A DNA stretch of 64,000 nt from Modestobacter sp. VKM Ac-2977. Its GTDB lineage: Bacteria; Actinomycetota; Actinomycetes; Mycobacteriales; Geodermatophilaceae. The stretch lies in the NCBI RefSeq assembly GCF_026968045.1, contig NZ_JAPVBQ010000001.1, positions 310,001-374,000 of the forward strand, read 5' to 3'. Below are positions 22,139 to 53,246 of this stretch, piece by piece. The stretch's first letter is position 1; the number at the start of each line of letters is the position of its first letter. Under the pieces are notes generated by a model. That model worked only from the letters and a program-made list of their open reading frames with translations, was not told the origin of the DNA and did not search any database. Position numbers and translations under genes: made by a program.

Positions 22139-23176
22139 TCAGCGGTTCCGGCGGACCCCGAAGACGATGTCCTCCCAGGCGGGGATGCGGGCGCGCGGGT
22201 CCTCGTCCTCGCCGTCGAGCAGCGAGCCCAGCACCGCGGTGTCCTGGCTGTCGGGGTCGACCTCGTCGTAGGCGCTCCGGCGGGGGAGCCCGTCGTCCGG
22301 GCCGTCGCCGGCGGGGATCCCGCCGTCAGTGGCGGGTGCGGCGACCGGATCGCCGTCGGCCGGGACGTCGGCCCGGGCTTCGTCGTCCCGGGCTTCGTCG
22401 TCCCGGGCTTCCTCGTCCCGGGCTTCGTCGGTCGCCCCCTGGTCGTCCGCGTCGCCGTGGTCGTCGTCGGCCGGCTCGGCGTCGGACTGCGCCTCGTCCT
22501 CGCGGTGCTCGTCGCTGCGGACCACGGAGATCCCCCGGCGGGAGACCGGCGCGGCGGGCAGGCCGGCCGGGACGTCCGGGACGACCCGGACCAGCCGGGT
22601 GCCCTCGGCGAAGTCCATCGTCGTCGCGTCGACCGGGGTCACCGTCCGGGCCGGGATGTCGTAGCTCCAGCGGGTGCTGCCGGACTTGTGCCCGGCCTGC
22701 CAGTCCGCGCGCACCTGCCAGGTGCCGTCCTCGGCGCGGTGCGCGTCCCAGCCGACGGTCTCCAGGTCGGCGCCGAGCAGCCGCAGCCGCTCGGACATGA
22801 ACTGCTCCAGGGGCACGCTGGGCGTGCCCTCGGACAGCCGCACCCGCGCGCCGCGGGCCTGCTCGGCGACCCGGGCGCGCTCCTGCAGCACCGGGTGGGC
22901 GAAGCGCATGATCCGCTCGACCCGGGTGCCGGAGGCGTGCGCCACCTGTTCGGGGGTCTCGCCGGCCCGGATCCGGGCCTGGATGACCCGAGGGGGCAGG
23001 TCGTCGGCCACCTCGACCGGGGCCTGGCGCGGGGCCTCGATGCGGAGGGCCGCCCGCAGTCGGTCGTCCACGGGCAGCTCGAAGCGCTCGCCGTCGTCCG
23101 TCGAGTCGGGCGCGTCCGCGGCGAGCACCAGGCGCTCGCCGTCCTCGGAGAGCGCCAACAGGCGCAGGGAGCGCAT
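22139..23176 (-). CDS. sepH: Septation protein SepH
   Basis: This 345-residue actinobacterial cell division protein stimulates FtsZ assembly. It opens with MRSLRLLALSEDGERLVLA and has the SepH N-terminal domain (DUF3071) with its helix-turn-helix-like part (LPPRVIQARIRAGETPEQVAHASGTRVERIMRFAHPVLQER). The conserved YDIPARTVTPVDATTMDFAEGTRLVRV block follows. The remainder is acidic and disordered, with a short tandem repeat (RDDEA type), and it closes with the conserved basic C-terminal motif IPAWEDIVFGVRRNR. Length is typical. A divergent 299-bp gap separates it from the amidotransferase gene. Confidence 0.95.
   Translation of the reverse strand: MRSLRLLALSEDGERLVLAADAPDSTDDGERFELPVDDRLRAALRIEAPRQAPVEVADDLPPRVIQARIRAGETPEQVAHASGTRVERIMRFAHPVLQERARVAEQARGARVRLSEGTPSVPLEQFMSERLRLLGADLETVGWDAHRAEDGTWQVRADWQAGHKSGSTRWSYDIPARTVTPVDATTMDFAEGTRLVRVVPDVPAGLPAAPVSRRGISVVRSDEHREDEAQSDAEPADDDHGDADDQGATDEARDEEARDDEARDDEARADVPADGDPVAAPATDGGIPAGDGPDDGLPRRSAYDEVDPDSQDTAVLGSLLDGEDEDPRARIPAWEDIVFGVRRNR
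22372..22431. repeat. Four tandem 15-bp repeats inside sepH
   Basis: The unit CCCGGGCTTCGTCGT is repeated four times end to end, with single-base changes in copies 3 and 4. It encodes an (A-R-D-D/E-E)-type acidic repeat in the disordered linker of SepH. Such in-frame minisatellites vary in copy number between strains. Confidence 0.85.
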
Positions 23177-23351
23177 GGGGGCGGCCTCCAGGAGGGGCTC
23201 GGTGCGATCGCGGACCAGACCAGCGTCACGCTAACGGCGCACCGTCGGGCCCGCGCCGTCGACACGCCCGGTACGGCGCGTCGGCTCGACAAGGGCCCTC
23301 GCGGCGTCCTCGTGCCGGCCGGGAGGCCCGGTCGCCGCCCGCCGGGGCAAC

Positions 23352-23364
23352 GACCAGAATGGTC
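23352..23364. promoter_or_regulatory. Short inverted repeat in the sepH-amidotransferase divergent region
   Basis: GACCA-gaa-TGGTC is a perfect 5-base inverted repeat with a 3-base centre, 112 bp before the amidotransferase start. It could be a regulator site for the osmolyte-type cluster. I see no other distinct motif in the 23177-23475 gap. It is short enough to be chance. Confidence 0.25.
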
Positions 23365-23475
23365 ACCTCGGCAGCCCCGGACCCGCCCGGCCACGTGCCG
23401 ACGACGACGGCGGGGGACGGTGGGACATCAGGCCGGCGCAGTGCGGCGCCGTTCCAGGACAGGGGAGGGGCGCAC

Positions 23476-25260
23476 GTGTGCGGCATCTCGGGTGAGGTCC
23501 GGTTCGACGGTGGCGTCGCCGACATGGCGGCGGTCAGCGCCATGTGCGACCAGCTGCAGCGACGGGGGCCCGACGGCTCGGGCGGCTGGCAGGCCGGGCC
23601 GGTGGCGCTCGGGCACCGGCGGCTGAAGATCATCGACCTGACCGACGCGGGCGCGCAGCCGATGGTGGACGCGGAGCTCGGGCTGACGATGGTCTTCAAC
23701 GGGATCATCTACAACTACAAGGAGCTGCGCGCCGAGCTGGAGGGCGTCGGCTACCGCTTCTTCTCCACCTCCGACACCGAGGTCGTGCTGAAGGCCTACC
23801 ACCGGTGGGGCGCGGCCTGCGTCGAGCGGTTCCTGGGGATGTTCGCGTTCGCCGTCGTCGAGCGGGACTCCGGCCGGGTGGTGCTGGCCCGCGACCGCTT
23901 CGGGATCAAGCCGCTCTACCTCAGCCGCGGGCCGGGGCGGGTCCGGTTCGCCTCCTCGTTGCCCGCGCTCGTCCGCGCCGGGGGCGTGGACACCAGCATC
24001 GACCCGGTCGCGCTGCACCACTACATGTCCTTCCACGCCGTCGTCCCGGCGCCGCGCACGATCCTGGCGGGGGTGGGCAAGCTGCCGCCGGCCACGGTGC
24101 GCACCTACGAGGCCGACGGCCGGGAGTCCGACTGGGAGTACTGGCGCCCGGTGCACGAGCGGCGGGCCGAGTTCGCCGGCCTGGACGCCGGGGAGTGGCA
24201 GGAGCGGGTGCTGGAGTCGCTGCGCGTGGCGGTGCGCCGGCGGATGGTCGCCGACGTCCCGGTGGGCGTGCTGCTGTCCGGCGGGGTCGACTCCAGCCTC
24301 GTCGTCGGCCTGCTGGCCGAGGAGGGGCAGCGTGGGCTGGCCACGTTCTCCATCGGCTTCGAGGCCGTGGGCGAGCGGTCCGGTGACGAGTTCGCGTACT
24401 CCGACGTGATCGCCGAGACCTTCGGGACCGACCACCACCGGCTGATGGTGCCCAGCGCCGACGTGCACGCCGGTCTCGACGGGGCGGTCGCGGCGATGAG
24501 CGAGCCGCAGGTCAGCCACGACGCGGTCGCCTTCTACCTGCTCTCCCAGCAGGTCAGCCAGCACGTCAAGGTGGTGCAGAGCGGTCAGGGCGCCGACGAG
24601 GTGATGGCCGGCTACGACTGGTACCCGCCGCTGGACGGCGTCCCGGCCGAGCAGGCCGTCGACGTCTATGCGCGGCACTTCGTCGACCGGCCGCACGGCG
24701 AGCTGGCCACCCAGCTCGCCGACCGCTGGATGGTGACCGACGACGTCAGCCGGGCGCTGATCGCCGAGCACTTCGCCCGGCCCGGCGCGGAGACGGCGTT
24801 GGACAAGGCGCTGCGGCTGGACTCGACGATCATGCTGGTCGACGACCCGGTCAAGCGCGTGGACAACATGACGATGGCCTGGGGCCTGGAGGCCCGGGTG
24901 CCGTTCCTGGACCACGAGTTCGTGGAGCTGGCCGCCGCCGTCCCGCCGGAGCTCAAGCTCGCCCACGGCGGCAAGGGCGTGCTCAAGGACGCCGCCCGCA
25001 AGGTCATCCCCGCCGACGTGATCGACCGGCCGAAGGGCTACTTCCCGGTGCCGGCGATCACCGACCTGCACGGCGACTACCTGGAGACGGTGCGCGCGGC
25101 GCTGCACGCACCGGAAGCCCGGGAACGCGGCCTGTTCCGCACCGACTACGTGGAACGACTGCTCGCCGACCCGAACAGCCACCGCACGACCCTGGGCGCC
25201 AACCAGCTGTGGCAGGTCGGGCTGCTCGAGCTGTGGCTGCAGCGACACGGCATCCGCTGA
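23476..25260 (+). CDS. N-acetylglutaminylglutamine amidotransferase-like (AsnB family)
   Basis: This 594-residue asparagine-synthetase-like amidotransferase starts at GTG 23476 behind a strong GGAGGGG site, so that Cys2 becomes the catalytic nucleophile (MCGISGEVRFDGG). The N-terminal class II glutaminase has RRGPDGSGGW and GHRRLKIIDLTDAGAQPM. The C-terminal synthetase has the PP-loop SGGVDSSLVVGLL near residue 276, and conserved blocks SGQGADEVMAGYDWYPP and DDPVKRVDNMTMAWGLEARV. The sequence tracks the NAGGN amidotransferase family (TIGR03104), which amidates N-acetylglutaminylglutamine, a compatible solute, better than ordinary AsnB. It leads a possible three-gene cluster with an S9 peptidase and an ATP-grasp protein. 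Confidence 0.9.
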   Translation: MCGISGEVRFDGGVADMAAVSAMCDQLQRRGPDGSGGWQAGPVALGHRRLKIIDLTDAGAQPMVDAELGLTMVFNGIIYNYKELRAELEGVGYRFFSTSDTEVVLKAYHRWGAACVERFLGMFAFAVVERDSGRVVLARDRFGIKPLYLSRGPGRVRFASSLPALVRAGGVDTSIDPVALHHYMSFHAVVPAPRTILAGVGKLPPATVRTYEADGRESDWEYWRPVHERRAEFAGLDAGEWQERVLESLRVAVRRRMVADVPVGVLLSGGVDSSLVVGLLAEEGQRGLATFSIGFEAVGERSGDEFAYSDVIAETFGTDHHRLMVPSADVHAGLDGAVAAMSEPQVSHDAVAFYLLSQQVSQHVKVVQSGQGADEVMAGYDWYPPLDGVPAEQAVDVYARHFVDRPHGELATQLADRWMVTDDVSRALIAEHFARPGAETALDKALRLDSTIMLVDDPVKRVDNMTMAWGLEARVPFLDHEFVELAAAVPPELKLAHGGKGVLKDAARKVIPADVIDRPKGYFPVPAITDLHGDYLETVRAALHAPEARERGLFRTDYVERLLADPNSHRTTLGANQLWQVGLLELWLQRHGIR

Positions 25261-25297
25261 CCTGACGTGGCCGCGCTCACGGCGCGGCGAGGAACAC

Positions 25298-25345
25298 CAC
25301 CACGCCGTCCGTCTGCTCCACTCGGGGCCGGCGGACGGCGTGGTG
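25298..25345 (+). terminator. Long hairpin between amidotransferase and peptidase genes
   Basis: CACCACGCCGTCCG (25298-25311) and CGGACGGCGTGGTG (25332-25345) are perfect 14-base arms around a 20-base loop, starting 38 bp after the amidotransferase stop. It may terminate or partly attenuate transcription, or stabilise the upstream message. If it is a full terminator, the downstream two genes need their own promoter in 25346-25385. Confidence 0.5.
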
Positions 25346-25398
25346 CGGTCCAGCACCCGTCGCGCCGTCCGACCGATCCCCGACCGAGGAGGTGTGCC

Positions 25399-27255
25399 GT
25401 GACCGACGTCCTGCGCAAGACCGGACTGTCCACCGAGGTGCGCCTCGCCGTCGCCGAGATCGCCGGCGCCCCGGGCGCCTGGTGCCCCAGCCTGGCGCCG
25501 ACGGGGGACCGGGTGGCCTACGTGAGCGACCGCTCCGGCGTCCCCCGGCTGGAGGTCGCCGCGCTGGACCAGCAGACCCCGCCGGCGGTGCTGTCCGGTG
25601 CCGAGGAGGAGGTCGTCTCGGTCGCGTGGTCGCCGGACGGCGCCTGGCTCGCCTACCTGGTGAGCCCCGGCGGCTCCATCTGCGCGCAGCTGTGGGCGGT
25701 CCGGCCCGACGGCACCGAGCGGCACCTGGTCGCCGGGCAGGACCCACGCGCCACCGTCTTCGCCGGCGGGTGGACCGCGGGTGGCCACTACGTCTGCTCG
25801 ATCGCCCCCGGGGACGGCCCGGGCGCCGACGTCGTCCTGGTCGACGTGGTCAGTGGTGCCCACCGCACCCTGGCCACCGGCGGCTTCCTCGCCGTCACCG
25901 CCGTCTCCGCCGACGAGCGGACGGTGCTGGCCCGGCGGGGCCCGCGCGGGCACCGGCACATCGTGCTGGTCGACGTCGCCACCGGCGCCCAGCAGCGGGT
26001 CATCCCGCTCGACGCCCCGGGTGGTGACTCCTCCGAGGACGGCCGGTTCGCCCCGGACGGCTCGGCGGTCTTCCTCCGCGCTGCGCTCCCGGCCCGGCCC
26101 GGGCTGCCGCGCAGCGACCGCACCGCGCTGGTCCGGGTCCCACTGGACGCCGGTCGGCAGCCGGGCCCGGCCCAGGTGCTCATCGCCCGGCCCGACGCCG
26201 ACCTGGACTCCTACGCCGTCCGCGCCGACGGCACGGTGCTGTGCGTCTGGAACGCCGACGGGGTCACCGAGCTGGAGCTGCGGGACCTGGCCGAGGGCGG
26301 CCTGCTGCGCACCGTGTCGCTGCCGCACCCGGTCATGCCCGGCTGGTCGCTGTCGGCCGACGGCGGCACGCTGCTGGCCGAGCTGACCGGCCCCACGTCC
26401 CCCCGCTCGCTGTGGTCGGTCCCGCTGGACGTCGACGGGGAGCCGGTGCCGCTGCCCAGCACGCCCCGCCACCCCGACCCGCACCTCCTGGTGACGCCGG
26501 TCCGGCTGCGCTACCCGGCCGCCGACGGCACCGAGCTGGACGGCTGGTTGTACACGCCGCAGGGGGTGGCCGGCCCCAACCGCACGGTGGTGAGCTTCCA
26601 CGGCGGCCCGGAGGGGCAGGAGCGGCCGGACTACCACCCGGTGGCCCAGTCGCTGGTCGCCGCCGGGCTGACCGTGTTCGCGCCGAACGTGCGGGGCTCG
26701 GGCGGACAGGGCCGGGCGTTCATGGCCGCCGACGACCTCGCTGCCCGGGAGGCGTCGTTCACCGACGTCGTCGCCACCGTCGAGCACCTGGTGGGCGAGG
26801 GGATCGCGGTGCCGGGCCGGGTCGGTTCGCACGGCTGGTCCTACGGCGGCTACCTGACGCTGGTGGCGCTCACCCGTTGGCCGGACCTGTTCGCCGCCGG
26901 TGCCACGCTGGCCGGGATGAGCGACCTGCGCACCTTCTTCGCGGGCACCGAGCCGTGGATGGCGGCGGCCTCGGTCACCGAGTACGGCGACCCGGTCACC
27001 GACCGGGACATGCTGGCCGCGATCTCCCCGATGACCGCGCTGGACCGGCTGCGGTCGCCGGTGCTGCTCACCCACGGCGACCGGGACACCAACGTGCCGG
27101 TGCTGGAGTCGATCCAGGCGCACCAGGAGCTGACCGCGCTCGGCGCGCCGGCCGAGCTGCTCCTCCTACGGGGTGAGGGTCACACGATCGTGGGACGGGA
27201 GAACGTGCTGCACCTGTCGGAGCGGGTCGCGGAGTGGTTCGATCGCTGGCTGTGA
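25399..27255 (+). CDS. S9 family (prolyl oligopeptidase-type) serine peptidase
   Basis: This 618-residue peptidase has an N-terminal beta-propeller of WD/PD40-like repeats (AYVSDRSGVPRLEVAAL, VAWSPDGAWLAYL) to about residue 360, then an alpha/beta hydrolase domain. Catalytic residues are visible: Ser in GWSYGGYLT (near 480), Asp in THGDRDTNVP (near 556) and His in GEGHTI (near 595). FHGGPEGQ forms the oxyanion-hole region. The start GTG has GGAGG five to six bases upstream. The protein lacks a signal peptide, so it acts in the cytoplasm, probably on short or acylated peptides. It sits seven bases from the ATP-grasp gene, and its role in making or degrading a peptide solute is an inference. 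Confidence 0.9.
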   Translation: MTDVLRKTGLSTEVRLAVAEIAGAPGAWCPSLAPTGDRVAYVSDRSGVPRLEVAALDQQTPPAVLSGAEEEVVSVAWSPDGAWLAYLVSPGGSICAQLWAVRPDGTERHLVAGQDPRATVFAGGWTAGGHYVCSIAPGDGPGADVVLVDVVSGAHRTLATGGFLAVTAVSADERTVLARRGPRGHRHIVLVDVATGAQQRVIPLDAPGGDSSEDGRFAPDGSAVFLRAALPARPGLPRSDRTALVRVPLDAGRQPGPAQVLIARPDADLDSYAVRADGTVLCVWNADGVTELELRDLAEGGLLRTVSLPHPVMPGWSLSADGGTLLAELTGPTSPRSLWSVPLDVDGEPVPLPSTPRHPDPHLLVTPVRLRYPAADGTELDGWLYTPQGVAGPNRTVVSFHGGPEGQERPDYHPVAQSLVAAGLTVFAPNVRGSGGQGRAFMAADDLAAREASFTDVVATVEHLVGEGIAVPGRVGSHGWSYGGYLTLVALTRWPDLFAAGATLAGMSDLRTFFAGTEPWMAAASVTEYGDPVTDRDMLAAISPMTALDRLRSPVLLTHGDRDTNVPVLESIQAHQELTALGAPAELLLLRGEGHTIVGRENVLHLSERVAEWFDRWL

Positions 27256-27262
27256 ACCCGCG

Positions 27263-28723
27263 ATGACCGACGCCTCCGGCGTCTTCGCGCGCTATACCGG
27301 CTCGGCGGACGACGAGGCGACGGGTGTGCGGCGGTCGGCCTACCGCCCCGTGCTGCAGGCGCTGGACGACCTCGGTGCCGACGGGATCGGCGCGGTCGTC
27401 GACGCGATCGACCGGGAACGCCGGTCGCGCGGGGTGGTGGCCGGCAGCTACGTCGACGGCCGGGTGCAGGAGCGGCCGCTCCCGCTCTGCCCGGTGCCCC
27501 GCGTCGTCCCGGCCGCCGACTGGGCGCACGTCGCCCGCGGCGCCGAACAGCGGCACCGGGCGCTGAACGCCTTCCTCGCCGACGTCTACCGCCCGGCCGG
27601 GCGGCGCCGCACCGACCCCGACCGGCACCCGGAGGTGGTCCGCGCCGGCGTCGTGCCGGCATGGGTCGTCGCCGCCAGCCCGGGGCTGCGCGCGTCGGCG
27701 GCCGGCCTGGCCGTGCCCGGTCAGCAGCGGGCCACCGTCGCGGGTCTGGACCTGCGGCACGGTCCGGCGGGCTGGGTGGCGGTCGCGGACGACCTGCGGA
27801 CGCCGACGGGCATCGGGTACGCCCTCAGCGACCGGGCCAGCAGCCGGGCCGCGCTGCCGGAGCTCCACGCCGCGGCCGAGGCCGCCGGGCTCGCCGACCC
27901 GGCCGAGGCGGTGCCCCTGCTGCGGGCGGCGCTGGCCGAGGCCGCACCGTCGGCGTGCACCGGAACGCCGCAGCTGGCCCTGCTGTCGGAGGGGCCGCGC
28001 AGCACCAGCTGGTTCGAGCACCGGCAGCTGGCCGAGGCGATGGACGTCCCGATCGCCACGCCGGACACGCTCTGGCCGACCCGCGGTGGGGGAGTCGCGG
28101 TGCAGGTGGACGGGCAGCGGCTGCGGGTCGACGTCCTCCACCTGCGGCTGGACGAGGCCGGGCTGGCCGCACACCTGACGCCGAGCGGGGCGGCGCTGGA
28201 CGTGCTGCTCGGTGCCGCGGTGCGGGCCGGGGAGCTGGCGCTGGCCAACGTGCCGGGCAACGGCGTGGCCGACGGCGAGGCCACCTACCGGTACGTGCCG
28301 GAGCTGATCCGGTTCTACCTCGGTGAGGAGCCGGTGCTGGAGACCATGCGCACCTGGCTGCTGGCCGACGACGCCGAGCTCGCCGAAGTGCGCGACCGGC
28401 TGCACGAGCTGGTCGTGACGCCGGTCGACGGGTACGGCGGTCGCGGGATGGTGGTCGGTCCGCGCTGCTCGGCGGCCGAGCTGGCCGAGCTGCACGCCGA
28501 GGTCGCGGCCGCCCCGCACCGCTTCATCGCCCAGGAGCCGCTCGACGTCTCCACGGTGCCCGCCGTCGTCGACGGCTCGCTGGCGCCCCGCGTCGCCGGC
28601 CTGCGGGTGTTCACCGTCGCCGGCGCCACCACCCGGGCACTGCCCGCGCCGTGGACCCAGGTGACGCTGGCCGAGGGCTCAACCGTGCTGGACGGCAGCA
28701 AGGACACCTGGCTGCTGCCCTGA
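27263..28723 (+). CDS. Circularly permuted ATP-grasp family protein
   Basis: This 486-residue protein of the circularly permuted ATP-grasp group (COG2308-like) should ligate a carboxylate to an amine with ATP. Recognisable blocks are STSWFEHRQLAEAMDV near residue 250, ALANVPGNGVADGEATYRYVPELIRFYLGEEP near 330, and the ATP-grasp core ELVVTPVDGYGGRGMVVGPRCS near 385. Then come RFIAQEPLDVSTVP and a closing GSKDTWLLP. Usual partners (alpha-E protein, transglutaminase) are absent; instead it follows an NAGGN-type amidotransferase and an S9 peptidase. No acetyltransferase domain is present, unlike classical NAGGN synthetase. Substrate is unknown. Confidence 0.85.
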   Translation: MTDASGVFARYTGSADDEATGVRRSAYRPVLQALDDLGADGIGAVVDAIDRERRSRGVVAGSYVDGRVQERPLPLCPVPRVVPAADWAHVARGAEQRHRALNAFLADVYRPAGRRRTDPDRHPEVVRAGVVPAWVVAASPGLRASAAGLAVPGQQRATVAGLDLRHGPAGWVAVADDLRTPTGIGYALSDRASSRAALPELHAAAEAAGLADPAEAVPLLRAALAEAAPSACTGTPQLALLSEGPRSTSWFEHRQLAEAMDVPIATPDTLWPTRGGGVAVQVDGQRLRVDVLHLRLDEAGLAAHLTPSGAALDVLLGAAVRAGELALANVPGNGVADGEATYRYVPELIRFYLGEEPVLETMRTWLLADDAELAEVRDRLHELVVTPVDGYGGRGMVVGPRCSAAELAELHAEVAAAPHRFIAQEPLDVSTVPAVVDGSLAPRVAGLRVFTVAGATTRALPAPWTQVTLAEGSTVLDGSKDTWLLP

Positions 28724-28729
28724 CGGCCC

Positions 28730-28750
28730 CCGTCCCGGAGCTCGGGACGG
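28730..28750. terminator. Hairpin between convergent genes
   Basis: CCGTCCCG (28730-28737) and CGGGACGG (28743-28750) form a perfect 8-base stem with a 5-base loop, seven bases after the ATP-grasp stop and six bases from the serC stop on the other strand. It probably terminates both transcripts. Confidence 0.6.
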
Positions 28751-28755
28751 CGTCC

Positions 28756-31077
<2,322 letters not shown>

Positions 31078-47025: not shown

Positions 47026-47716
47026 CTGTGCTCTCCACCTCCCGCGCCTCCGGCGCCGTTGCCGGGGCTCGTGTGCTGAGACAAGGTAACGGTTGCGACA
47101 CCGTGCCGCCCGCATCTCTCCCGACGAGTCGGGGGGCCAGGTCGTTCCCTGGTGCGGCTCCGCCTCGGTCGCCGTCCTGGTGACGGGCCGTGGCCAACCG
47201 CTTCCGAATTGGCGCAATCAGACTGCTGCATGGAGATCTCATGACGATCTCATGACATTGCTGTGCTGCGCTGGGAGGCGGACTCTGCATGCCCGGTCAG
47301 ACGGCCATACCCCCAGCTCAGTGCGGCGACACGTCCATCAGGACACGGATCTCCGTCGGTTCGACGGAATTGTCTTTGTGCTCTGCGACACCCCGGGTGC
47401 GTCACGACCCCATAACGGAATTGCACGATCGACTGAACGTGCCATTTGGCCGCCCAATTCACTGTTAGCGTCCTGTTCCGAGATGGGAGCGGGTCCGCCT
47501 GCCCCACCCCGGCTCGCCACCCGGCGCACTGCAGAGTGCGCGCCGACGCCCCCTGGCGTCGTGGACGGCGAGCCGCACCCGCGCCTCGTGGCGCCCGCCC
47601 CAGGGGCGGTGCGCCCGGTGGGACGACACGGCCGGTGAGGCTGCTCCTCGGAGTGGCGTGCCCGCGCTCGTCGTCCCGCCCGGCCCGGGGCCGTGTCCGC
47701 CGACGAGAGGTTGCCC
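47026..47716. other. 691-bp gene-free region upstream of proVWX
   Basis: No convincing gene lies here. Base composition from about 47200 to 47480 is visibly less GC-rich than the rest of the window. Visible structure: a tandem 11-bp repeat at 47235-47256, and CGGAATTG at 47365-47372 and again at 47416-47423 with CAATTC at 47455-47460. Closer to proV, GGGACGAC and GTCGTCCC (about 47620-47627 and 47669-47676) could close a long stem just before the proV start. It probably contains promoters for the acetyltransferase and proVWX genes and an osmotic control region or structured leader. I could not match it to the c-di-AMP (ydaO) riboswitch consensus. Confidence 0.6.
47235..47256. repeat. Tandem 11-bp repeat in the proVWX upstream region
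   Basis: GATCTCATGAC occurs twice without a gap (47235-47245 and 47246-47256). An 11-bp period places both copies on the same face of the helix, as expected for cooperative regulator binding. Confidence 0.7.
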
Positions 47717-48976
47717 GTGCCCGCAGTACACGCCGAGGGGTTGTTCAAGGTCTTCGGCCGGCGCACCGCCGAGGCGGTCGACCGGCTCCGGGACGGCGCC
47801 TCGGTCGCAGAGGTGCGGGACCGAGGCGCCACGCCGGCCGTCATCGACGTCAGCTTCACCGTCGAGCCGGGCGAGATCTTCGTGGTCATGGGGCTGTCGG
47901 GCTCGGGCAAGTCGACGCTGCTGCGGATGCTCAACGGGCTGCTGGAGGTCACTGCCGGCACCGTGCACGTGGGTGAGGCCGAGCTGACCGCGCTGGACGA
48001 CAAGGCGCTGCGCCGGCTCCGGCAGGAGCAGATGAGCATGGTGTTCCAGCACTTCGCGCTCTTCCCGCATCGCAGCGTGCTGGACAACGCCGCCTACGCC
48101 CTCGAGGTGCGCGGCGTCGACCGCGCCACCCGTCGGGCCAAGGCGCAGGAGGCCCTCGCGCTCGTCGGGCTCGACCAGTGGGCCGACCAGAAGCCCGGGC
48201 AGCTCTCCGGCGGCATGAAGCAGCGGGTCGGCCTGGCCCGCGCCCTCGCCGCCGACACCGACCTGCTGCTGATGGACGAGGCGTTCAGCGCACTGGACCC
48301 GCTGATCCGCCGCGAGATGCAGGACCAGCTGCTGGAGCTTCAGGCCTCGCTGGGCAAGACGATCGTCTTCATCACCCACGACCTGAACGAGGCCATGCGC
48401 CTCGGCGACCGGATCGCGATCATGCGCGACGGCCGGGTCGTGCAGATCGGCACGCCCGACCAGATCCTCGAGGCCCCGGCCGACGACTACGTCCGCCAGT
48501 TCCTCGCCGACGTCGACCGTGGGCGGGTGTTCACCGCCCGGCACGTCATGGTCGAGGCACCCACCCTGGTCTCCCCGACGGCTGCGCCCGCGCAGGTGCT
48601 CCAGGCGATGCAGGACCACCGCTCCGGTTCCGTGCTCGTCGGGGACGGCGACGGCCGGGTGGCCGGCGTGGCCACCGAGGACGCCGTCCGGGCCGCCGTC
48701 GCGGCGGGGGCGCCGTCGCTGGCCGGCCTCACCCTGCTGCCCTCGGTCGACGTCCGGGCGACGACCACGCTGAGCGACCTGCTCGCCCCCGCCGCCCAGG
48801 ACGAGGTGCCGGTGACCGTCGTGGACGACGCCGGCCGGCTGCTCGGGGTGGTGCCCCGGGGCGCGGTCCTGGCCGCACTGGGGGGCGTGCCGCGCCCCGC
48901 ACCGTCCATCTCGCGGGCACCGGCCGACCCGGTGGGCGCGACCGCCGTGACGACGAAGGAGGCCGTCAGTGGCTGA
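47717..48976 (+). CDS. proV: Glycine betaine/proline ABC transporter ATP-binding protein
   Basis: This 419-residue ATPase belongs to an OpuA/ProU-type importer of compatible solutes. It has the ProV-type N-terminus (LFKVFGRRTAEAVDRLRDG), Walker A GLSGSGKSTLLRMLNGL near 58, and signature LSGGMKQRVGLARALA. Walker B is LLLMDEAFSALDP and the switch His FITHDLNEAMRLGDRI. A CBS-pair region from about residue 280 (ARHVMVEAPTLVSPT...) would sense ionic strength or nucleotides. GTG 47717 is chosen because GAGAGG lies six bases upstream; a GTG eight codons earlier has no such site. It overlaps proW by eight bases. Confidence 0.93.
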   Translation: MPAVHAEGLFKVFGRRTAEAVDRLRDGASVAEVRDRGATPAVIDVSFTVEPGEIFVVMGLSGSGKSTLLRMLNGLLEVTAGTVHVGEAELTALDDKALRRLRQEQMSMVFQHFALFPHRSVLDNAAYALEVRGVDRATRRAKAQEALALVGLDQWADQKPGQLSGGMKQRVGLARALAADTDLLLMDEAFSALDPLIRREMQDQLLELQASLGKTIVFITHDLNEAMRLGDRIAIMRDGRVVQIGTPDQILEAPADDYVRQFLADVDRGRVFTARHVMVEAPTLVSPTAAPAQVLQAMQDHRSGSVLVGDGDGRVAGVATEDAVRAAVAAGAPSLAGLTLLPSVDVRATTTLSDLLAPAAQDEVPVTVVDDAGRLLGVVPRGAVLAALGGVPRPAPSISRAPADPVGATAVTTKEAVSG

Positions 48977-49967
48977 GACCGTGCTCCGGGCCGCCGAGGA
49001 CGGCGCCCTGCCGCAGATCCCGGTGGGCGACTGGATCGACACCGGCTTCGACTGGGTCACCGAGAACTTCTCCCCGGTCTTCGACGTGATCAGCGCCGGC
49101 ACCGAGGCCGGGGTGGAGGGGCTGCGCGACGCGCTGCTGTTCCCCCCGCCGGTCCTGTTCGCCGTGCTGCTGGCCGTGCTCGGCGGCGTGGTGCGGTCGG
49201 TGCGCTTCGCCGTCGTCTCCCTGCTGGGGCTGCTGCTGCTGATCAGCATGCGGATGTGGGAGCCGGCCATGGCCACCCTGGCCCTGGTCCTGGTGTCCGC
49301 GGTCATCGCGGTCGCGATCGGGATCCCGATCGGGATCGCGGCTGCGAAGAGCGACCGGGTCAGCGCCGCGCTGCGGCCGGTGCTCGACTTCATGCAGACG
49401 ATGCCGGCCTTCGTCTACCTCGTGCCCGCGGTGACGTTCTTCGGCATCGGCCTCGTCCCGGGCGTCGTCACCACGATCATCTTCGCCATGCCGCCGGGGG
49501 TCCGGCTGACCGAGCTGGGCATCCGGCAGGTCGACCCGGAGCTGGTGGAGGCCGGGCACGCCTTCGGCAGCCCACCCGGCCGGATCCTCCGCGGCATCCA
49601 GTTGCCGCTCGCCCTGCCGACGATCATGGCCGGGGTCAACCAGGTGATCATGCTGGCGCTGTCCATGGCGGTCATCGCCGGGCTGATCGGCGCGGCCGGG
49701 CTGGGTGGCGTAGTCGTCACCAGCATCTCCCGGCTGGACGTCGGGCTGGGCTTCGAGGGCGGCCTGTCGGTCGTCATCCTCGCCATCTACCTCGACCGGT
49801 TGACCAGCGCGTTCGGCCAGCGACGGGGAAGGCTGTCCGGCTTCCCGTCCTTCCTGAGCCGCGGTGGCTCGGTCGGCAAGGGCGGCCTCGCCGCCAGCAG
49901 CCGGTCCGCCGATGCCGTCACCCCAGTCGGGACCGACCAGAACGCACCCACCGAATCTGCCCGGTAG
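48969..49967 (+). CDS. proW: Glycine betaine/proline ABC transporter permease
   Basis: This 332-residue ProW-type permease has an N-terminal amphipathic part containing the FDWVTENFSPVFDVISAG segment. Seven to eight spans follow, with the ABC importer loop around residues 195-215 (GIRQVDPELVEAGHAFGSPPGRILRGIQLPLALPTIMAGVNQ, EAA motif). The C-terminus is hydrophilic. The GTG start lies inside the end of proV. It forms the membrane channel of the osmoprotectant importer with ProV and ProX. Confidence 0.93.
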   Translation: MAETVLRAAEDGALPQIPVGDWIDTGFDWVTENFSPVFDVISAGTEAGVEGLRDALLFPPPVLFAVLLAVLGGVVRSVRFAVVSLLGLLLLISMRMWEPAMATLALVLVSAVIAVAIGIPIGIAAAKSDRVSAALRPVLDFMQTMPAFVYLVPAVTFFGIGLVPGVVTTIIFAMPPGVRLTELGIRQVDPELVEAGHAFGSPPGRILRGIQLPLALPTIMAGVNQVIMLALSMAVIAGLIGAAGLGGVVVTSISRLDVGLGFEGGLSVVILAIYLDRLTSAFGQRRGRLSGFPSFLSRGGSVGKGGLAASSRSADAVTPVGTDQNAPTESAR

Positions 49968-50066
49968 CCGATCGGCGCGGCCCTCCCGGGCCGTCGCCGC
50001 GGAGCCGGAGCACCAACGGTGCGCGGGGCAGTCGACCGCCACCAGAAGTAGGAGAGGAACCACCGC

Positions 50067-50993
50067 ATGAACAAGCACCTGACCACCCGAGGCGCGCGCC
50101 TCGCCGCCGGCCTCGCCGCCGTGGCCCTCACCGCCACCGCCTGTGGTGGGGACGCCGAGGAGGACACCACCGCCGCCGGTGGGACGTCGTCCGGCAGTGA
50201 CTGCGAGACCGTCAACCTGGGCTTCATCCCGTCCTGGACCGACGGCCTGAGCATGGCCCACCTGTGGGACGGCGTCCTCGCCGAGCAGGGCATCGAGGTC
50301 GAGATGACCGAGATCTCCGAGGCGGCTCCGCTGTACGCCGGCCTGGCCGGGGGCGACGTCGACGTCTACCCGTCCGCCTGGTCCGAGGTCACCCACGCGG
50401 CCTACATGGAGGAGTACGGCGACCAGCTCGAGGACCTCGGTGCCTGGTACGAGGGCGCGAAGCTGACCTTCGCCGTCCCGGAGTACACCGACATCGAGTC
50501 GATCGCCGACCTGGCCGGCAACGCCGAGATGTTCGACGGCCGGATCGTCGGCATCGAGCCCGGTGCCGGCCTCACCGCCACCACCAAGGACAGCGTCATG
50601 CCGACCTACGGGCTGGAGGAGGACTACACGCTGGTCGAGTCCTCCACCACCGCGATGTTGGCCGAGCTGCAGGCGGCGACCGACGCCAACGAGGACATCG
50701 TCGTCACCCTGTGGCGCCCGTTCTGGGCCAACAGCGAGTTCCCGGTCAAGGACCTCGCCGACCCGGAAGGCGCCCTGGGCGACGCCGAGGGCCTGCACAC
50801 GCTGGCCCGTGAGGGCTTCTCCGCCGACTGCGCCGACGTGGCGTCGATGATGGAGAACGCGACCCTCACCGACGAGCAGTACGGCTCGCTGGAGAACATG
50901 GTCGTCAACGAGTACGGCGAGGGCCGGTACGACGAGGCCGTCGACGCCTGGCTCGAGGAGAACCCGGACTTCATGGAGTCCCTGCAGGCCTGA
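50067..50993 (+). CDS. proX: Glycine betaine/proline-binding lipoprotein
   Basis: This 308-residue OpuAC-type substrate-binding lipoprotein has a signal peptide with lipobox TATAC at Cys26, then a Thr/Gly-rich linker. The binding domain opens with CETVNLGFIPSWTDGLSMAHLWDGVLAEQGIEVEMTEIS. Aromatic residues that cage quaternary ammonium groups are plausible at GDVDVYPSAWSEV and TLWRPFWANSEFPVK. A ribosome binding site (AGGAGAGGA) precedes the ATG. It ends the proVWX operon before two hairpins. Confidence 0.93.
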   Translation: MNKHLTTRGARLAAGLAAVALTATACGGDAEEDTTAAGGTSSGSDCETVNLGFIPSWTDGLSMAHLWDGVLAEQGIEVEMTEISEAAPLYAGLAGGDVDVYPSAWSEVTHAAYMEEYGDQLEDLGAWYEGAKLTFAVPEYTDIESIADLAGNAEMFDGRIVGIEPGAGLTATTKDSVMPTYGLEEDYTLVESSTTAMLAELQAATDANEDIVVTLWRPFWANSEFPVKDLADPEGALGDAEGLHTLAREGFSADCADVASMMENATLTDEQYGSLENMVVNEYGEGRYDEAVDAWLEENPDFMESLQA

Positions 50994-51220: not shown

Positions 51221-51883
51221 TCACTGCAGTTCGACGAAGCGCTCCACGTCGGCCGGCCGGCCGGCGATGACGATCTCCGCGCCGTAGGTCAGCACGGTGT
51301 CGTAGTCGGCGTGGGTGTAGCTCGCCGTGTTCTCCGGCTTCACCGACACCACGGTGACGTGGTGCTTCTTCCGCAGGCCGGTCTGGCCGAGCGGGACGCC
51401 GACGATCTCCCTCGGCGGCTTGGTCTTGGCGAACACCCACTGCGGGTCCAGTTCCACCCAGTCCAGCAGCCGGCCGGCGACCAGGTGCGCGATGCGCTCG
51501 CCCATCTCCTGCTCGGGGAAGACGACGTGGTGGGCGCCGATGCGGCTCAGGATGGTCGCCTGCTGCCGGGTCACGGCCTTGGCCCAGATGGTGGGGATCT
51601 CCAGCTCGGACAGCAGCGCGGTGGTGAGGATGCTGGCCTCGAGGTGGCCGCCGATGGCCACGACGACGCGGCTGAAGTCGGCGATGCCGATCTCGCTCAG
51701 CGCCTCCGCGTCGGTGGTGTCGGCGATGACGACCTGGCCCAGCTGCCCGGACAGCCGCTGCACGATGTCGGGCCGGTTGTCCACGGCGAGCACCTCCGTG
51801 CCGCCGCGGGCCAGTTCGAGGGCGAGTGCGGTGCCGAACCGACCCAGGCCGAGCACGGCGACGGGGTCCTTGTGGCTAGCCAA
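51221..51883 (-). CDS. Potassium uptake regulatory protein (TrkA/KtrA)
   Basis: This 220-residue RCK protein gates the KtrB/TrkH-type channel next door. The N-terminal Rossmann domain has VAVLGLGRFGTALALELARGGTEVLAVDNRP, including the nucleotide motif. The RCK_C domain occupies the last 80 residues (PREIVGVPLGQTGLRKKHHVTVVSVKPE). The TTG start at 51883 overlaps the TrkH stop by eight bases and follows a GAGGAGAGG site. ATP, ADP or c-di-AMP control is known for the family but not visible here. Confidence 0.92.
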   Translation of the reverse strand: MASHKDPVAVLGLGRFGTALALELARGGTEVLAVDNRPDIVQRLSGQLGQVVIADTTDAEALSEIGIADFSRVVVAIGGHLEASILTTALLSELEIPTIWAKAVTRQQATILSRIGAHHVVFPEQEMGERIAHLVAGRLLDWVELDPQWVFAKTKPPREIVGVPLGQTGLRKKHHVTVVSVKPENTASYTHADYDTVLTYGAEIVIAGRPADVERFVELQ

Positions 51884-53246
51884 CGATGGTCCTCTCCTCG
51901 GGGAGCTGGTGCCGGCGGGCGCGGTCGCGGAGCGCGAGCCCCGACGCCAGGGTGAGCGGCCCGATCCGGCCGATGTACATGAGCAGCACGAGCAGCACCT
52001 GTCCGGCCGGCGGGAGGTCGGCGGTGATGCCGGTGGACAGGCCGACGGTGGAGAAGGCGGAGACGACCTCGAAGAGCACCACGTCGAAGCTGAAGTCGGT
52101 GAGGGCCTCCATGAGGAACGTGGACACGGCGACCACGCCGATGCCGAGCAGTGCGATCGCCAGCGCCTGGCGCTGGTTGGTGCTCGGCACCCGGCGACGG
52201 CCGACCTCGACGTCGGGGTCACCGCGCATCTCCGCCCACAGGACGTAGGCCAGCAGGCCGAAGGTGGTCACCTTGATCCCGCCGGCGGTCCCGGCGCTGC
52301 CGCCGCCGATGAACATCAGCGCGTCGGTGAGCAGCAGCGTCTCGGGCTGGTAGGCGGCGATGTCGAGGTTGTTGAACCCGGCAGTGCGCGGCATCACCGC
52401 CGCGGTGAAGGCGGCCAGCAACGTCGCCCCGGCGCCCAGTGGGCCGAGGGTCCCGGGGTTGCCGCCCTCGGCGATCAGGAACAGCAGGGTCCCGCCGACG
52501 AGCAGGACGACGGTGACGATGACGGTGATCCGGGTGAGCACCGACCAGCTCTTCGGCGACCGCCACTCGCGGACCAGCTCGAAGACCACCGGGAAGCCCA
52601 GGCCGCCGATGATGATCGCGACGCAGATGGTCAGGCTGATCCACGGGTCGGCCACGTACTGCACGAGGCTGTCGGCGTTGAGCCCGAAGCCGGCGTTGTT
52701 GAACGCCGAGACGGCGTGGAACACACCCGAGTAGGCCGCCGACGACAGCGGCTGGTCGTAGCCGGTGGCGAACCGGATCCCGAGCACGACGGCCACCACG
52801 GCCTCGACGCCGAGGCTGAAGAGCACCACTCTGCGGATGACCCGGCGGACGTCCGCGGCGGACAGCGCCTTGGTCTCCGCCTGGGCGATCAGCCGGGCCC
52901 GGAGCCCCAGTCGGCGGGACAGCACCACCGCGAGCAGGGTGGCAAGCGTCATGATCCCGAGGCCGCCGGCCTGGATGAGCAGCAGGATCACCGCCTGGCC
53001 GAAGCCCGACCAGTAGGTGCCGGTGTCGACGGTGACCAGTCCGGTGACGCACACCGCGGACGTGGCGTGGAACAGCGCGGTGAGGAGGTCGGCGCGACCG
53101 GGGCCGGCGACGGCGATGGGCAGCGACAGCAGAGCGGTGCCGACGGCGACGGCCACGGCGAAGGCGCCGGCGATGACCCGGCCCGGGTGGTGGAAGCCGC
53201 GCGCGGGGGTCGGGCGGCCGGCCGGGTTGCGGATGCCCTGCGTCAC
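51876..53246 (-). CDS. Potassium uptake channel subunit (TrkH/KtrB)
   Basis: This 456-residue potassium transporter subunit is built of four M1-P-M2 repeats. Pore-loop segments with the essential Gly are visible: FHATSAVCVTGLVT, FHAVSAFNNAGFGLN, TAAVMPRTAGFNNLD and FEVVSAFSTVGLSTG. Size and tight coupling with the KtrA-type gene fit a KtrAB system that takes up potassium during osmotic shock, so it complements ProVWX. The GTG at 53246 begins MTQGIRNPAGRPTPARGFHHPGRV. Divergent from the 53389 gene with 142 bp between. Confidence 0.93.
   Translation of the reverse strand: MTQGIRNPAGRPTPARGFHHPGRVIAGAFAVAVAVGTALLSLPIAVAGPGRADLLTALFHATSAVCVTGLVTVDTGTYWSGFGQAVILLLIQAGGLGIMTLATLLAVVLSRRLGLRARLIAQAETKALSAADVRRVIRRVVLFSLGVEAVVAVVLGIRFATGYDQPLSSAAYSGVFHAVSAFNNAGFGLNADSLVQYVADPWISLTICVAIIIGGLGFPVVFELVREWRSPKSWSVLTRITVIVTVVLLVGGTLLFLIAEGGNPGTLGPLGAGATLLAAFTAAVMPRTAGFNNLDIAAYQPETLLLTDALMFIGGGSAGTAGGIKVTTFGLLAYVLWAEMRGDPDVEVGRRRVPSTNQRQALAIALLGIGVVAVSTFLMEALTDFSFDVVLFEVVSAFSTVGLSTGITADLPPAGQVLLVLLMYIGRIGPLTLASGLALRDRARRHQLPEERTIVG

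Follow-up and report, generated by a model that had tools for sequence, protein, structure and literature searches.

The locus considered here lies in a stretch of 64,000 nucleotides (hereafter "the window") from contig NZ_JAPVBQ010000001.1 of Modestobacter sp. VKM Ac-2977, and consists of three consecutive genes on the plus strand: an amidotransferase (AT) of the type known from the synthesis of N-acetylglutaminylglutamine amide (NAGGN), a peptidase of family S9 (S9) and a circularly permuted ATP-grasp protein (CP). A first-pass annotation, made from the letters alone, had already named these three genes and the 7 bp before the last of them, and profile searches (TIGR03104, PF00326, PF14403/PF04174) place all three exactly there. 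The main features of the locus are as follows:

23476..25260, plus strand: AT, NAGGN-type glutamine amidotransferase (AsnO-like, TIGR03104); GTG start; 981 bits to TIGR03104, cut-off 570.1
25298..25345, plus strand: perfect 14-bp inverted repeat in the gap between AT and S9, with no T tract
25399..27255, plus strand: S9 peptidase, acylaminoacyl-peptidase-like; GTG start; PF00326 E-value 4.7e-45 (search run from 25396)
27263..28723, plus strand: CP ATP-grasp protein with a glutathione-synthetase-like fold and degraded active-site motifs; ATG start; PF14403 E-value 3.1e-96 and PF04174 E-value 6.9e-69 (search run from the longer open reading frame start at 27173)

AT has both the Cys at position 2 and the SGGVDS loop. 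The GTG of S9 at 25399 is directly preceded by a Shine-Dalgarno-like gaggagg, and S9 is separated from AT by 138 bp and from CP by exactly 7 bp.

The linkage of these genes was followed in 112 genomes of the family Geodermatophilaceae, which were searched for AT, CP and NGG (i.e., the NAGGN synthetase, a bifunctional GNAT/ATP-grasp enzyme, TIGR03103), and the positions were joined into 105 AT rows, including one fragment. AT adjoins NGG at 99–191 bp in 69 of these rows. CP lies 3′ of AT at 2161–2394 bp, in the order of the window, in 27 rows (type A), and 5′ of AT at about 90–107 bp in 8 rows (type B), so that a single row shows neither linkage. Each of the 27 type A loci has S9 in the interval from AT to CP (in the row of genome G099, the AT at a contig edge is only a fragment and scores under the cut-off). 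The three-gene order, whose conservation the first-pass annotation had proposed to check, is therefore found in 27 of the 112 family genomes; and since the genes are side by side in every type A locus and occur in another order in other families, the linkage is more than chance. NGG above its cut-off is missing from 18 of the 27 type A genomes, so another enzyme must feed AT there, and CP is the obvious candidate. A ligase of the GCS2/YbdK type (GCS2) is likewise without a match over the NF010041 cut-off in 8 of these 18, where weaker GCS2-like matches do occur; that is to say, by these cut-offs CP is the sole candidate among NGG, CP and GCS2 in those eight genomes. Neither the window nor the scanned type A loci gave a GCS hit. 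A third class of CP ATP-grasp (about 285 bits to PF14403) is present in the family at L107, L108 and L109, with no AT, S9, NGG or GCS2 in the fetched stretch.

In the genome of the window itself, the synthetase that the first-pass annotation had proposed to look for is present: NGG was found at C10:298145-299788, where it scores 803.4 bits (cut-off 569), on contig C10, while AT is on contig C1, so the two are not adjacent. The two open reading frames 3′ of this NGG look by eye like trehalose synthesis genes. The AT of the window is the sole protein above the TIGR03104 cut-off in the genome; a second asparagine-synthase-like protein (C1:1234514-1236379, L002) reaches 351 bits, under the cut-off. 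A search of this genome for TIGR03106, the M42 peptidase that completes the NAGGN trio, gave no match, and the GCS2 ligase of the genome (C9:121507-122664) is away from the window. There is also a second CP ATP-grasp at C1:89249-90379, followed on its 3′ side by a transglutaminase-like gene, which is the usual context of the family (the alpha-E gene beside it was named by eye). The two CP proteins are distant, with 37% identity over a tblastn segment.

A peculiarity of the window CP is the state of its active site. Compared with 33 relatives, it has K386T in the glycine-rich loop, D338G, K339E, D446G and R466Q, together with a shortened C-terminal GGG loop before KDTW. Lys386 presumably binds ATP, as in other ATP-grasp enzymes. 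When a CP is called intact if it has Lys386, ADDK at 336–339 and an N-S-x-x-GGG loop, the window CP falls outside (T at 386, ADGE at 336–339, shortened loop). CP orthologs were taken from 72 loci, of which 71 were scored (the contig end cuts CP in G082, and the CP matches of G016, G030 and G038 are outside the 72). The motifs are intact in 22 of the 23 genomes without NGG, against 2 of the 48 with NGG; Fisher's test gives p 5e-15, a value computed on related rows that are not independent. Among the 44 loci fetched after the pattern had been seen, 3 of the 4 genomes without NGG that could be scored have an intact CP, and 38 of the 39 with NGG do not. All 8 type B copies are intact, as is the transglutaminase-linked copy. 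The active site of the window CP thus appears to have been lost, probably because NGG is present elsewhere in the genome.

Selection on the three genes was compared by median ratios of nonsynonymous to synonymous substitution (dN/dS, by the Nei-Gojobori method on within-group pairs). In the NGG-bearing clade of the window, CP has a dN/dS of 0.47, S9 of 0.23 and AT of 0.15; in the Modestobacter strains without NGG, the values are 0.30, 0.24 and 0.22, respectively, and CP of the NGG-less genus g9 has 0.28. Since CP also has 0.28 in the NGG-bearing genera g2 and g3, its constraint is relaxed in the clade of the window only. Most CP orthologs of g2 (e.g., L324, L318 and L322) have Glu at the Lys386 position, at a dN/dS of only 0.28, and are perhaps a conserved non-catalytic form.

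As for the predicted folds, the CP model has a mean confidence score (pLDDT) of 91.8, and its top Foldseek match is 3n6x, annotated as a putative glutathionylspermidine synthase, followed by eukaryotic-type glutathione synthetases (E about 1e-16 to 1e-13, TM-score about 0.5–0.6) and then by Cp1B, GspS and YgiC. The S9 model (pLDDT 91.3) consists of a beta-propeller plus an alpha/beta-hydrolase fold and matches acylaminoacyl peptidases best, the nearest solved structure being 5l8s (TM-score 0.88). Its catalytic columns S481, D563 and H595 are invariant in a 23-sequence family alignment, and the protein resembles the acylaminoacyl-peptidase type, so that its predicted activity would be on N-acylated peptides.

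Beyond the family, a class sample of 296 genomes was searched. AT over the cut-off is present in 86 genomes (87 genes) and NGG in 46 genomes; 44 of the AT genes are within 5 kb of NGG and 43 are not, the AT of the window belonging to the latter. NGG is missing from 41 of the 42 other class genomes with an unlinked AT. The loci of 40 of these 42 were fetched (G362 and G403 being outside) and scanned with profiles built from the loci at hand, by which CP was found in 26 (one a fragment), GCS2 in 35 and S9 in 32. The sets are GCS2-CP-AT-S9 in 18 loci, GCS2-AT-S9 in 11, GCS2-CP-AT in 6, AT-S9 in 2, CP-AT in 1, CP-AT-S9 in 1 (where CP is the fragment) and none of these in 1. The identity of GCS2 was upheld by NCBIfam for 7 of 8 proteins submitted, the eighth having been translated in the wrong frame. 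From the loci with AT and S9 but without CP, GCS2 was at one time taken for a mere substitute of CP, and this was dropped when the GCS2 profile placed the gene beside CP in most CP-bearing loci; GCS2 is therefore usually a companion of CP. A PF14403 protein is wholly missing from 9 of the 11 genomes with GCS2-AT-S9 loci. A conserved GNAT gene in the cluster was also dropped as a candidate, because neighbour clustering found only AT, S9 and an upstream ligase cluster recurring widely (single linkage on heuristic open reading frames, the ligase cluster also taking in some CP-less loci). Among the named loci of CP relatives, which are the best 80 of at least 596 and not a census, GCS2-CP-AT is present at 12 outside Geodermatophilaceae, and S9 joins it at 10 of these; the 12 belong to Micromonosporaceae, Thermomonosporaceae, Frankiaceae, Streptosporangiaceae and Pseudonocardiaceae, with one metagenome-assembled genome named Pseudonocardiales. 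AT, S9 and NGG are all missing at 60 of the best 80.

Several of the loci have features of their own. In two Pseudonocardia loci (L243 7340-8975 and L253 7360-9800), opposite-strand genes separate CP from AT, one of those in L253 resembling by eye a type III glutamine synthetase. L197 (8885-11219) has a tandem pair of GCS2-like ligase genes 5′ of AT-S9 (665 and 320 bits to our own profile). L186 and L201 have AT without CP, NGG or GCS2 directly upstream, and L201 is also without S9; a suggested reading is that these two amidotransferases have other substrates or ligases acting in trans.

The amidotransferases themselves were arranged in a tree by a quick maximum-likelihood search (96 rows, with every second NGG-linked row taken). 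The NGG-linked ATs are one supported group (28 rows, starred support 97) and the type A ATs another (21 rows, starred support 100); the two join at support 94, unstarred, with CP- and GCS2-linked lineages around both. The NGG-linked ATs differ from the others at two positions, with Leu257 in place of Met and Leu570 in place of Arg. It may be speculated from Arg570 that ATs unlinked to NGG act on a substrate with an additional negative charge, for instance a gamma-glutamyl peptide.

Taken together, we consider it reasonably probable, somewhat above an even chance, that the CP ATP-grasp is an alternative to NGG as the ligase feeding this AT, and that in the present genome NGG has probably taken over, CP decaying while AT and S9 are kept under constraint. 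In the proposed pathway, an ATP-grasp ligase would join two carboxylate/amine units into a short peptide, AT would transfer the amide nitrogen of glutamine to the C-terminal carboxylate of this peptide, and S9, as an enzyme of acylaminoacyl-peptidase type, would degrade the amidated product once it is unneeded. In relatives without NGG, most of which retain an intact CP alongside AT and S9, the peptide that AT caps would be built by CP, alone or with GCS2. In the genome of the window and its NGG-bearing sister strains, AT would most likely be fed by NGG in trans, with the adjoining CP losing its active site. The direction of this replacement and a role of the product in osmotic stress are what we infer from these patterns.

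A number of observations weigh against this reading. The definition of an intact CP was set after the first 34-row alignment had been seen. Phylogenetic control is weak: NGG state changes 5 times and CP state 3 times on the tree, and the 5 independent pairs give 3 in agreement, 0 in opposition and 2 ties (p 0.25; the test points the same way but is underpowered). There are exceptions on both sides: G061 and G099 have NGG with an intact CP, G010 (a genome 91% complete) has neither NGG nor an intact CP, and G104 (99% complete) has an intact CP without S9, AT or NGG. Lys386 alone is still kept in 8 of the 48 NGG-bearing genomes. The altered CP of g2 and g3, still constrained at the dN/dS given above, suits a new role over decay. 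In 37 of the 38 NGG-bearing genomes outside the own genus (g1), S9-CP stands at this locus without AT, so S9-CP need not have AT alongside. The AT of the window's clade keeps Arg570, like ATs unlinked to NGG, while Leu is found in 57 of 57 NGG-linked rows, and it may therefore not be tuned to the NGG product. Finally, the 14-bp hairpin may uncouple AT from S9.

Some of these points would agree better with a plain NAGGN pathway, in which AT works with the NGG of the other locus and has nothing to do with the S9-CP pair next to it. The presence of NGG in the genome, the same-place S9-CP pairs without AT and the hairpin in the AT-S9 gap all fit it, but it leaves the type A genomes without NGG unaccounted for, and AT, CP and S9 recur in other families in a different arrangement, 26 of the 40 unlinked loci having CP next to AT, so we regard it as rather unlikely. 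The first-pass annotation had proposed that the CP of this genome itself makes the peptide amidated by AT, giving a variant compatible solute. This proposal is partly right, and more so for the relatives, among which the three genes stay linked and NGG is missing from 18 of the 27 type A genomes; for the genome of the window it has in its favour that the CP frame is open over its full length and starts 7 bp behind S9, a predicted fold of peptide ligases and the conserved linkage, against which stand the replacement of Lys386, Asp338, Lys339, Asp446 and Arg466 with the shortened GGG loop, a CP dN/dS twice that of S9 in the clade, and a normal NGG. Here we find it improbable. It had also held that a normal synthetase elsewhere, together with an unconserved linkage, would speak against it: the synthetase is there, and the linkage is conserved. 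Least probable to us is a CP that, in NGG-bearing genomes, is not decaying and acts as a non-catalytic partner, e.g., by regulating S9 or AT or serving as a scaffold for one of them. The retained open frames and the constrained Glu-bearing proteins of g2 would suit such a partner, yet in the clade of the window the replacements vary by strain (T, V, R) and constraint is relaxed.

Beyond the probable takeover by NGG in this genome, a wider proposal can be put forward, tentatively and at a little less than an even chance: that Actinobacteria have a widespread and undescribed counterpart of the NAGGN pathway, in which AT and S9 are constant and the ligase is exchangeable (NGG; CP; GCS2; or GCS2 with CP). 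The combination of GCS2 and CP would be glutathione-like: GCS2 would supply a gamma-glutamyl unit, CP would extend it by one residue and AT would cap the end, giving a new C-terminally amidated gamma-glutamyl peptide. NGG and CP would replace each other in Modestobacter-like bacteria, one decaying when the other is present.

Among the known systems close to this locus, the NAGGN pathway (asnO-ngg of Sinorhizobium meliloti; PA3459-PA3461 of Pseudomonas aeruginosa) shares the TIGR03104 amidotransferase and has its TIGR03103 synthetase in this genome as well; here, in contrast, AT is far from the synthetase, the TIGR03106 M42 peptidase is missing, and S9 and CP are beside AT. The Pseudomonas operon and its role at high osmolarity are described in PMC8070244, and the isolation of NAGGN from a Micromonospora with asnO and ngg in PMC8146288. 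The system of CP ATP-grasp, alpha-E and transglutaminase shares the Pfam families PF14403 and PF04174, but the window CP has S9 and serC as neighbours and no alpha-E or transglutaminase gene, and its membership in that system was rejected because the neighbours differ and a separate copy of that kind lies elsewhere in the genome. Glutathione synthesis (GshA-type GCS2 plus eukaryotic-type glutathione synthetase) is paralleled by the widespread sister cluster, which pairs GCS2/YbdK with a CP of comparable predicted fold, while that cluster adds an amidotransferase and S9. The window shares AT, S9 and CP side by side with the GCS2-CP-AT-S9 cluster and is without the GCS2/YbdK ligase in the locus. 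Cp1B, the ligase of E-64, is, according to PMC12568646, an ATP-grasp enzyme of glutathione-synthetase architecture that forms pseudodipeptides; its structure 9cjn matches the window CP model, but it is a fungal enzyme with 15% identity to that model (Foldseek).

Searches of openly accessible full texts, with subscription journals outside their scope, found no paper joining acetylglutaminylglutamine with ATP-grasp or carboxylate-amine ligase, and none joining CP_ATPgrasp, or carboxylate-amine ligase plus ATP-grasp, with asparagine synthase. Part of the linkage may be mentioned already in the 2009 amidoligase survey of Iyer and colleagues. If the wider proposal is true, the enzymes annotated as NAGGN amidotransferase would yield a product other than NAGGN, or yield it by another route, in about half of the AT-bearing class genomes (42 of 86, own genome excluded). 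Streptomyces-like bacteria, Actinoplanes, Micromonospora, Streptosporangium and Pseudonocardia would then have a new amidated peptide that is directly open to testing, perhaps an osmolyte or a redox-type metabolite. The contrast of NGG and CP would then be a rare natural experiment, in which structurally different, interchangeable peptide ligases supply one tailoring enzyme.

The remaining features of the window are as follows:

22139-23176, minus strand: sepH, divergent from AT on its upstream side
downstream of CP, minus strand: serC, converging on CP
47693-50993: ProVWX-like glycine betaine transport genes
51221-52222, minus strand: TrkA-domain protein

The ProVWX genes had been noted in the first-pass annotation, and they do lie in the window. 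A scan of 23100-28900 for promoter and terminator consensus gave 0 of each and is uninformative at this GC content. From its sequence, the inverted repeat between AT and S9 is a possible transcript-ending or attenuating hairpin, and with the length of the gap it means that AT may be transcribed apart from S9-CP. In a comparison of 24 rows (L211 and L214 being the same strains as other rows), the AT-S9 gap ranges over 40–138 bp; the 14-bp stem occurs in the window alone, and an 8 bp stem in five other rows. The 7 bp between S9 and CP is found in 14 of the 24 rows, some of them from one strain.

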